The translations under genes and the position numbers were made by a program. From Cytobacillus oceanisediminis (lineage in GTDB: Bacteria > Bacillota > Bacilli > Bacillales > Cytobacillaceae), in contig NZ_SOEE01000001.1 of NCBI RefSeq assembly GCF_004366035.1, positions 806,001 to 870,000 on the forward strand: a DNA stretch of 64,000 nt, in the 5' to 3' direction. The notes beneath the pieces were generated by a model. That model saw only the letters and a program-made list of their open reading frames with translations. It ran no database searches and was not told the DNA's origin. Shown here piece by piece: positions 54,012-58,372 of this stretch; position 1 is the first letter of the stretch, and every line of letters starts with the position of its first letter.

Positions 54012-54250
54012 ACAAAAAACCTCTCATCCCAAAAAAGGGACGAGAGGATTATGTATAAATCTCCCGCGGTACCACCCACATTAGTGAACATGTCACTCGC
54101 TTCATTCATCCTTAACGCGGAAAACGGCAAGCATTACTGGTCCTTCACACTTGCTGCTCCAAGGCGAGTTCATGATGTGCCCGGCTGACTTGCACCTTCC
54201 GTCAACTCTCTAAAACGGGCTGTTGCACCACTACTGCTCCTTATCTAAGC
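54012..54250 (-). promoter_or_regulatory. Leucine T-box riboswitch of leuS
   Basis: On the minus strand the conserved T-box GGGTGGTACCGCGG (54064-54077) with UGGU bulge is followed by terminator CCTCTCGTCCC / GGGATGAGAGG and TTTTTTG (54014-54047). Upstream is a Stem I-like region with AGAGAGTTG, and a candidate specifier CTC (Leu) at 54166-54168 in GAACTCGCC. UGGU fits the A discriminator of tRNA-Leu. Uncharged tRNA-Leu should stabilise the antiterminator. Confidence 0.95.
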
Positions 54251-54279
54251 ATTTTAGTATAAGAATATGACTATTGTAA
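54251..54279 (-). promoter_or_regulatory. SigA promoter of the leuS T-box leader
   Basis: Minus strand TTACAA, 17-base spacer, TAAAAT (an overlapping TATACT is an alternative -10), directly upstream of the T-box. Confidence 0.62.
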
Positions 54280-56520: not shown

Positions 56521-56589
56521 TTCATTTCCCCCTTTGTTTTTAAAAATAGGCTGTTTTCGCAAGGTTTGCTGCTATTTGTATACTATTTA

Positions 56590-56660
56590 CTGAGTTGATT
56601 GCAGCGGGACAGGAGAGACCTCGCGGAAAGCGAGCAGCCTGGAGCGGAAATCAACGGACA
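56590..56660 (-). repeat. Family B intergenic repeat, copy 4 (short, inverted)
   Basis: Minus strand TCCGTTGATTTCCGCTCCAG to GCAATCAACTCAGT; only about 70 bases, so the interior is mostly missing. It lies in the leader of the permease operon. Confidence 0.82.
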
Positions 56661-56734
56661 ACATGAATAGGCGAAAAACAACAATTTATACGAAAAGAGC
56701 CTAAAAATAAGAAAAACTTTTCATCCCCTTTCTT

Positions 56735-56748
56735 TGAAAACGTTTGCA
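56735..56748. promoter_or_regulatory. cre site downstream of the sigma-54 promoter
   Basis: TGAAAACGTTTGCA matches TGWAANCGNTNWCA at all but one position. It lies about 25-40 bases after the expected transcription start, suited to CcpA roadblock. Confidence 0.78.
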
Positions 56749-56784
56749 GAAAAAATCAGAAAAATAACTTGCTGAGAAAAGATA

Positions 56785-56802
56785 ATGCAAGAGTCGTGCC
56801 AA
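56785..56802 (-). promoter_or_regulatory. Sigma-54 (SigL) -24/-12 promoter
   Basis: Minus strand TTGGCACGACTCTTGCAT, nearly identical to consensus TTGGCACG-N4-TTGCW, with the invariant GG and GC at correct spacing. It directs transcription toward the permease and dehydrogenase genes. Confidence 0.93.
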
Positions 56803-56853: not shown

Positions 56854-56867
56854 TCCAGGATTCTGGA
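56854..56867. promoter_or_regulatory. Palindrome, candidate enhancer site
   Basis: TCCAGGATTCTGGA, 14-base near-palindrome, about 60 bases upstream of the sigma-54 promoter. Same motif as at 56968. Confidence 0.65.
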
Positions 56868-56967
56868 ATACACAGGGAACAAGTCCACTGATATAATAGA
56901 CTAGTTTTCTGATAATTACGTCTAATACTGGGACTAAGTGTACATAAAATTACTAGAATGAAAACAG

Positions 56968-57001
56968 TCCAGAATTCTGGAACATATTCCGAATTTCTGG
57001 A
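56968..57001. promoter_or_regulatory. Tandem palindromes, candidate enhancer sites / regulator terminator
   Basis: TCCAGAATTCTGGA (perfect palindrome) and TCCGAATTTCTGGA, centres 20 bases apart. The flanks AACAGTCCAGAA and TTCTGGACTGTT also pair with each other and could form the terminator of the regulator gene (minus-strand tail TTCATTC). Confidence 0.65.
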
Positions 57002-57010
57002 CTGTTAATC

Positions 57011-58372
57011 TTATTCAATTCCATATTTCTTTAGTTTTTCATACATAGAAGATTTACTGATGCCTAGAGCTTTTGCAGCTTCTAATCGGTCCTGGTTATA
57101 TTTGCTCAAACTTTGGGTCAATATCCGCTTTTCTGTTTCTTCCAGAATGTCCTTCAAGTTCTTTTTTCCAACGGGATAAACAGCAGATTCTTTCATGTAA
57201 TCCGGCAATGATTCTGTAGTGATACTTTCATTGCTTGTTAAATGAATGGATGCCTCAATTACATTTTCAAGCTCCCTAATATTGCCGGGCCAGCTATATT
57301 GATGAAACTTTTCAATTACCTCGTCTTCAATTGCACTAATTCTCTTTCCCGATTTTTTTGTTATTTTCTTGATAAAGCTATCGATTAGGAGTGATAAATC
57401 TTCCATCCTGTCGCGCAAAGAAGGAATCATGAACGGCACAACATTAATCCGATAGAATAGATCCTCCCTAAAGCGCTTTTCTTCCATCATTTTTTCGAGC
57501 GGTCTGTTCGTTGCAGCGATAATCCGGACATCTACTTTAACCGGAGAAGTCGAACCCACGCTTTCAATCTCGCCTTCCTGCAGGGCACGCAATAACTTCA
57601 CCTGCATATTAAGCGGCATATCTCCGATTTCATCCAAAAATAAGGACCCTCCATCAGCAAGCTGGAATTTCCCCTTTTTACCTCCCTTTTTTGCACCTGT
57701 AAAAGCACCTTCTTCATAGCCAAACAGTTCAGACTCCAACAGATGTTCCGGGATGGCTCCGCAGTTAATTTTCACAAATGGCTGATGGCTCCTGTTGCTG
57801 AGCTGATGTATGCTGTGTGCAAATAGTTCTTTTCCAGTCCCGCTTTCCCCGCGGATTAATACGGAGATATCACTGGCTGCCACCATTTTCACCTTTTCTT
57901 TAAGACTATGAATCTGGCTCGAGTTTCCCAGAATATCATCAAGGCTGTATTTTACACTTGGATCAATTTCCTGGATAAAGCTCTGGATTTTTGTCAGCAT
58001 GCTCTTTACATGGCTGTTCATCTGCATCCATTCCTTTGTATCTCTAAAAAAGACTGTCCCGAAAGCGCCAATTACTTCGCCATCAGAAAAAATGGGAATG
58101 CGATTTGCTATCATATAGTTGCCTCTTATATATTGCAGGTCTGCAATTTCTTCCTTGCCTGATTCTGCCACTATATGCATACGTGAATTTTCAATTACCT
58201 CAGACACATGCTTCCCCAGAACCTGTTCCCTCTCCACTTCCAGAAAATCGCAATAATTTTTATTAATGTAAATAATCGTTCCTTCTTTATTCACAACTAC
58301 AAGCCATCCAAAAGCGTTCTCAACAATGGTTTCGACAATCTCCACAGGCAGATCGAATAATGCACTTTTCAT
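57011..58372 (-). CDS. Sigma-54-dependent activator with PAS sensor
   Basis: 453 aa enhancer-binding protein. PAS domain about residues 12-110 (GWLVVVNKEGTIIYINKNYC), AAA+ domain with Walker A GESGTGKE (175-182), the sigma-54-contacting GAFTGA loop (222-227), Walker B SLFLDEIGD (243-251), arginine finger region FREDLFYRINV, and C-terminal Fis-type helix-turn-helix (RLEAAKALGISKSSMYEKL). No receiver domain, so the PAS domain probably senses a metabolite directly. It is encoded immediately upstream of, and in line with, the sigma-54 promoter and palindromes, making it the likely activator of the permease/dehydrogenase operon. GAGGGG precedes the ATG. Confidence 0.94.
   Translation of the reverse strand: MKSALFDLPVEIVETIVENAFGWLVVVNKEGTIIYINKNYCDFLEVEREQVLGKHVSEVIENSRMHIVAESGKEEIADLQYIRGNYMIANRIPIFSDGEVIGAFGTVFFRDTKEWMQMNSHVKSMLTKIQSFIQEIDPSVKYSLDDILGNSSQIHSLKEKVKMVAASDISVLIRGESGTGKELFAHSIHQLSNRSHQPFVKINCGAIPEHLLESELFGYEEGAFTGAKKGGKKGKFQLADGGSLFLDEIGDMPLNMQVKLLRALQEGEIESVGSTSPVKVDVRIIAATNRPLEKMMEEKRFREDLFYRINVVPFMIPSLRDRMEDLSLLIDSFIKKITKKSGKRISAIEDEVIEKFHQYSWPGNIRELENVIEASIHLTSNESITTESLPDYMKESAVYPVGKKNLKDILEETEKRILTQSLSKYNQDRLEAAKALGISKSSMYEKLKKYGIE

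Follow-up and report, generated by a model that had tools for sequence, protein, structure and literature searches.

The window, as we call the whole stretch of 64,000 nucleotides of Cytobacillus oceanisediminis DNA analyzed here, carries a permease gene and a dehydrogenase gene on its minus strand, and a sequence resembling a sigma-54 promoter faces both. This locus raises the question of whether ketone-body use is placed under sigma-54 by a dedicated activator, and of how such a control region is built. We consider it very probable, from comparison of sequences, that the locus is a sigma-54 (SigL)-dependent (R)-3-hydroxybutyrate catabolic operon with its own activator, three activator-site dyads (UAS1–UAS3), a likely cre, and a hairpin in which enhancer and terminator would overlap (table 1). 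The promoter is well conserved and the system is of an ordinary kind known in another phylum; the control region is unusual, and most of it (the three dyads, the cre, and the hairpin) had been missed in the preliminary description of this DNA.

Table 1. Features of the locus, with positions in the window
Feature	Position	Strand	Evidence
Sigma-54 activator (EBP): PAS, AAA+ with GAFTGA, Fis-type HTH	57011..58372	minus	Pfam, alignment, AlphaFold
UAS1 x UAS2 composite hairpin, probably terminating the activator gene	56964..57005	minus	Folding energy, covariation
UAS1 (predicted), TCCAGAAATTCGGA	56988..57001	minus	Dyad found in 63/63 loci
UAS2 (predicted), TCCAGAATTCTGGA	56968..56981	minus	20 bp from UAS1
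UAS3 (predicted), TCCAGAATCCTGGA	56854..56867	minus	Centre 59 bp from first TGGCAC base
Predicted sigma-54 promoter, -24 TGGCAC / -12 TTGCA	56785..56802	minus	Sequence match, orthologue conservation, genome-wide motif count
Candidate cre (CcpA site), TTGAAAACGTTTGCAG read on plus strand	56734..56749	minus	11/12 consensus positions
GntP-family permease, 439 aa	55201..56520	minus	PF02447, 31.1 bits vs cut-off 22.5
3-Hydroxybutyrate dehydrogenase, 258 aa	54367..55143	minus	NF009093, TIGR01963, 6zzq_A

A Conserved, Predicted Sigma-54 Promoter Faces the Permease and Dehydrogenase Genes

The preliminary description had proposed a consensus -24/-12 element directed toward the permease and dehydrogenase genes, and a scan of the 64-kb window bore this out, since TGGCACGACTCTTGCA at 56786–56801 was the sole perfect match to TGGCACN5TTGCA. 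The element has GG at -24 and GC at -12, ten bases apart and upstream of a gene, and it starts 209 bp beyond the stop codon of the activator gene and points toward the permease and dehydrogenase. When up to two mismatches were allowed, the window contained 30 matches compared with 20.9 expected from shuffles; thus, near-matches to this pattern mean little by themselves. Exact matches to the pattern TGGCAYN5TTGCW numbered 44 genome-wide, against 5 for a reversed control pattern. The genome encodes 17 strong EBP cores (and 5 weaker AAA matches), and 20 of the 44 sites were located within 4 kb of one of the strong cores, compared with an expectation of about 1.1; every one of the 17 strong EBPs had such a site nearby, and the remaining 24 sites had no strong EBP core within 4 kb.

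We addressed the conservation of this element by scanning the genomes of 84,980 species, which yielded 67 loci with a relative of the activator. The permease and dehydrogenase lay beside the activator in 62 of them, in the window's order in 61; the exception, L054 of Lentibacillus persicus, has the dehydrogenase before a different GntP permease. Five loci lacking the permease and dehydrogenase (L061, L063, L065, L066, and L067) were dropped. One retained record, L040, is titled Pseudomonas sp. ISL-84 and is probably mislabelled or contaminated, with a locus 90–97% identical to the window's proteins. A search for the same promoter upstream of orthologous operons had been suggested as a check, and a best-site scan found TGGCAYN5TTGCA between the activator and the operon in 62/62 loci. 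In an alignment of 63 promoters (the 62 orthologous loci and the window), TGGCA and TTGCA were invariant, which partly follows from the site-picking procedure; the spacer positions were 44–87% conserved, and the upstream flank was mostly 32–73% conserved, except that the T directly 5' of the motif was conserved at 97%. The conservation of the predicted sigma-54 promoter is far beyond chance.

The genome has one match to rpoN, and dependence of the operon on sigma-54 (SigL) is predicted. We regard as highly improbable the alternative that the -24/-12 match is a relic, with the operon in fact transcribed from a sigma-A promoter or by polymerases that run on from the activator gene. Although the activator gene and the operon lie on the same strand with a gap of 490 bp, the motif was kept at all 62 loci, and sigma-70-like sites occurred in the region at chance level (11 vs 10.6), two of them on the minus strand near the gap. 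As a separate observation, window positions 56530–56710 have 24 partial matches elsewhere in the genome, marking a dispersed repeat inserted between the promoter and the gene; the 5' leader of the permease measures 265 nt in the window and 103 nt in L002.

The protein encoded upstream on the same strand had been described as a PAS/AAA+ activator, an identification upheld by its Pfam domains (Sigma54_activat, 246.9 bits; PAS_9, 37.1; HTH_50, 37.5) and by a GAFTGA loop found in the alignment. The combination of an AAA+ Sigma54_activat domain, the GAFTGA loop, and a C-terminal Fis-type HTH is that of an EBP. The AlphaFold model (mean pLDDT 80.9, pTM 0.56) has ZraR (1ojl) as its nearest PDB fold, and the protein is 98% identical to a relative in C. 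oceanisediminis 2691. PrdR (NF041552) was the highest-scoring NCBIfam family, but the score of 458 bits is below the PrdR cut-off of 795, and this assignment was rejected.

Three Conserved Dyads Between Activator and Promoter

Dyads of the form TCCRRNNNNYYGGA, called when at least 9/10 positions agreed, were present exactly three times per region in 63/63 regions (62 loci and the window), compared with 0.03 per shuffled region. As called, UAS1 and UAS2 were spaced by 20 bp in 60 of the 63 loci; the call in L030, L035, and L039 fell on an alternative dyad that overlaps, yet TCC...GGA is present at -20, so the spacing holds in 63/63. The distance from the UAS3 centre to the first TGGCAC base was 48–50 bp in 25 loci, 58–61 bp in 37, and 71 bp in one, as raw counts over the 63 loci uncorrected for ancestry. 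The three distances of UAS3 correspond to helical steps, as they should if all sites had to look toward the promoter from the same helix face; the UAS2-to-promoter distances were phased less clearly (R 0.56 at 10.5 bp). In L044, UAS3 lies inside a 21-bp near-perfect inverted repeat, which is longer than the UAS1/UAS2 hairpin of that locus. The likely reading of the dyads is that they are binding sites for the activator.

Within its own genome, the paired UAS occurred once, and the UAS3-plus-promoter pattern likewise; by both patterns this operon is the activator's sole target, and a wider regulon in this genome was rejected. Across the family, an unbiased search found the UAS pair in 60/193 genomes, and the reversed control matched none. 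All 29 UAS-pair loci that were examined had an EBP together with a sigma-54 site in the right orientation, so that the site pattern picked out EBP loci in each case, and the permease was also seen in 21 of the 29.

A second UAS pair with different letters was found in 7/193 genomes of the family. The six loci examined (L151, L152, L156, L158, L159, and L160) carried a paralogous activator whose matched part shows 53–63% identity. They repeat the UAS/terminator layout together with its hairpin (-24 to -39 kcal/mol), and their UAS3, at 48 or 59 bp, is weaker. In L159, the one locus read, the activator copy is split over two reading frames and the promoter faces the gene of an AMP-binding enzyme.

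The Paired Sites Form a Covarying Hairpin at the End of the Activator Gene

Region 56940–57030, which includes UAS1 and UAS2, folded at -30.3 kcal/mol (z -6.1), and none of 200 shuffles folded as well. Measured from the start of UAS1, the hairpin began 3–39 bp past the activator stop codon in 63/63 loci. Its arms were aligned in 60 of the 63 loci, leaving out L015, L022, and L068, which have fewer than 4 bases before UAS1. Eleven of 18 pairs had changed on both sides, and 121 double-change cells were counted, compared with 50 in shuffles and at most 28 with the arms slid against each other; pairing within each dyad did not covary (15 cells vs 21 shuffled). Among 44 representatives, the counts were 89 observed, 34 shuffled (shuffled maximum 55), and at most 18 slid. 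In the dyads the outer TCC/GGA letters are invariant, which is how a protein site behaves, and the inner letters vary yet keep their pairing between UAS1 and UAS2.

We propose that the UAS1 x UAS2 hairpin is probably the terminator of the activator gene. Termination is the weakest step of our explanation: the T-tract is modest (in most loci, only 7–11 of the following 16 bases are T), and a simple terminator scan recovered only the short UAS2 stem at this place, among 7 terminator-like sites in the region compared with 4.2 expected. In L054 the UAS1 x UAS2 hairpin is weak (-12.1 kcal/mol), and 2/709 control segments from the same regions folded equally strongly (-36.3 and -25.3).

Nested inverted repeats are prone to template-switch correction. 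The covariation of UAS1 and UAS2 could thus be mutational, produced by template switching between the inverted arms, with the hairpin idle in RNA, and C-A mismatches, which are poorly tolerated in RNA, occur at one inner pair (UAS1 position 11 x UAS2 position 4) in 22/63 loci. We nevertheless consider this origin unlikely. The hairpin keeps its place just past the activator stop codon at every locus, and the pairing extends beyond the protein sites, where four flanking pairs covary as well (29 double-change cells in the 44 representatives). In addition, the paralogous system, with different dyad letters, has a stronger hairpin in its six loci, and L054, where UAS1 and UAS2 pair poorly, has a separate long hairpin that ends in T's and encloses UAS3.

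The overlap of enhancer and terminator is the strongest new point of this analysis, with a pairing backed by covariation and a putative function in termination. A more far-reaching proposal, which we advance only tentatively and hold to be rather less probable than not, is that enhancer and activator terminator co-evolve as a single element, which two or more paralogous EBP systems would have inherited as a unit. Activator occupying UAS1/UAS2 would then influence the termination of its own message, or enhancer occupancy would be influenced by polymerase as it leaves the activator gene; either would provide built-in feedback between making and using the activator. No report of a UAS/terminator overlap was found among the top matches in the open-licence PMC literature.

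That this overlap is a general habit of the genome's EBPs was rejected. Among the 16 of 17 EBPs examined (all but L114), seven others had a promoter downstream in the same direction, and by eye none of them showed the paired layout; in C23 and C27 the hairpin is of an ordinary type and apart from the promoter-proximal repeats, and C5:102051 is ambiguous.

A Candidate cre Downstream of the Promoter

A cre-like site matching at least 11/12 positions was found no more than 100 bp past the promoter in 51/63 loci, and one matching at least 10 in 58/63. By comparison, 200 permuted consensus strings reached a mean of 0.58 loci at the stricter threshold and 7.1 at the looser one, the worst reaching 21 and 50. 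The five loci without a cre at 10/12 or better were L016, L021, L023, L024, and L032; in L021 and L023 a 10/12 cre-like site overlaps the promoter instead. The operon thus has a likely cre near its promoter, like a CcpA-repressed operon, and repression by CcpA at this conserved site is predicted.

The Operon and Its Probable Place in 3-Hydroxybutyrate Catabolism

The dehydrogenase had been named a 3-hydroxybutyrate dehydrogenase, and it scored above the cut-offs of both NF009093 (397.8 vs 258 bits) and TIGR01963 (360.3 vs 307.05 bits). The closest solved chain, 6zzq_A (E 1.1e-107), is a 3-hydroxybutyrate dehydrogenase, and both proteins have Asn at the position matching Asn145, a residue reported, in an excerpt of the source, for the Acinetobacter baumannii 3-hydroxybutyrate dehydrogenase (PMC13390443). 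The naming of the permease as GntP held at the level of the wider Pfam family but not at that of the gluconate symporter TIGR00791 (29.7 vs 292.75 bits); the protein is a remote GntP relative, and we infer its substrate from context.

A thiolase-scoA-scoB operon is present elsewhere in the genome. Upstream of it we found no UAS (best 7/10) and no sigma-54 site (best 6/9), which argues that this activator does not govern the remaining steps of the pathway. In four of the 62 loci (L016, L024, L025, and L032), however, a gene pair of CoA-transferase size lies between the promoter and the permease; CoA-transferase was confirmed for both subunits in L016 and for one subunit each in the other three. 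Two further CoA-transferase gene pairs of this genome were seen near other EBPs with a sigma-54 site, one with aminotransferases (L135) and one with an NMT1-like protein, an acyl-CoA ligase-like protein, and an Fe-ADH (L136).

It is quite improbable, in our judgment, that the promoter is real but the substrate and inducer are another short hydroxy- or keto-acid. Such a reading would fit a permease that is merely remotely GntP-like, subfamily models that leave the substrate unfixed, and a paralogous activator that, with the same type of site, drives an AMP-binding gene of the acyl-CoA ligase type. The two cut-offs passed by the dehydrogenase, its closest solved chain with the shared Asn145, and the CoA-transferase genes within the operon in 4/62 loci argue for 3-hydroxybutyrate instead, as does the adjacency of GntP, scoA, scoB, and hydroxybutyrate dehydrogenase genes in Azospirillum.

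On the far side of the operon, a T-box leader (RF00230, 123.6 bits) at window positions 54033–54256 on the minus strand sits between the dehydrogenase and leuS; thus, two differently controlled operons abut. Searches of plasmids for an operon like that of the Pseudomonas activator HbcR led, in the five regions inspected, to GntP permeases with other regulators as neighbours; on a Rossellomorea plasmid (L141), a second permease-dehydrogenase pair had no EBP, UAS, or sigma-54 site beside it.

Proposed Mechanism and Comparison with Known Systems

We propose that the PAS domain would sense 3-hydroxybutyrate or acetoacetate, and that activator dimers on UAS1, UAS2, and UAS3, on one face of the DNA, would assemble the AAA+ ring, which would loop to the bound sigma-54 polymerase and open the promoter. 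When preferred sugars are available, CcpA at the cre would silence the operon. The dehydrogenase would produce acetoacetate, to be converted into acetyl-CoA by the CoA transferase and thiolase encoded elsewhere. The activator transcript would end at the UAS1 x UAS2 hairpin, and one 42-bp element would be both part of the enhancer and a terminator insulating the operon from read-through. The locus would thereby be a sharply defined member of a sigma-54 regulon for Bacillaceae, with its activator, three sites, promoter, and cre. The predicted overlap is compact in design: the same bases would be constrained both by protein-DNA recognition and by RNA pairing, and the alignment allows these two constraints to be distinguished.

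That sigma-54 control of this pathway would be new in itself was not supported. According to excerpts of published reports, in Pseudomonas HbcR/PA2005 and RpoN control the use of (R)-3-hydroxybutyrate, which is itself the signal for activation (PMC13390443, PMC10482368, PMC8694187, PMC8657755). No report of sigma-54 control of hydroxybutyrate in Bacillus appeared among the top matches in the open-licence PMC literature, and the word "hydroxybutyrate" was not found in the main-text portions of the paper on the sigma-54 regulon of B. thuringiensis HD73 (PMC4428206).

The contrast with B. subtilis had been the other part of the novelty argument. The yxjC-scoAB-yxjF genes there encode proteins of the same kinds: a permease, a CoA transferase, and a dehydrogenase. 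In the available portion of one source, the SigE group includes yxjC, scoA, scoB, and yxjF, two of which, yxjC and scoA, are also listed as CcpA-negative (PMC3097244); the CcpA listing is a likeness to the window, whereas the SigE sporulation group there differs from the sigma-54 promoter and dedicated EBP here. This difference stood. The claim that the B. subtilis genes are linked to scoAB instead was less clean, as scoAB is missing from the window's operon, yet CoA-transferase genes lie inside it in 4/62 loci. The novelty argument was thus only partly right, because of these CoA-transferase genes and of the reported HbcR/PA2005 system.

Two B. thuringiensis systems resemble the control region, although their substrates and sensory domains are different. 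GabR is a PAS EBP, and the excerpted report describes a binding region with a 21-bp inverted repeat separated by 5 bp (PMC4279683). The cel operon of CelR, as presented in part of its source, has three UAS and a cre with a sigma-54 promoter (PMC10864463) and is a precedent for the combination of CcpA with such a promoter and three UAS. The word "terminator" was not found in the main-text portions of either paper; as a guess, the inverted repeat of GabR may be the same enhancer-terminator trick, unnoticed.

In function the operon would resemble HbcR (PA2005)/RpoN of Pseudomonas, described in those excerpts as a PAS-containing EBP with sigma-54 over a 3-hydroxybutyrate dehydrogenase. This comparison is between different phyla and between descriptions rather than sequences, and only for the Bacillota version do we describe a UAS type, a cre, and an enhancer-terminator hairpin. 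By this analogy, the window's operon may work like HbcR control, and ketone-body use in these Bacillota would be under control of the Pseudomonas type, and not under SigE as listed for B. subtilis.
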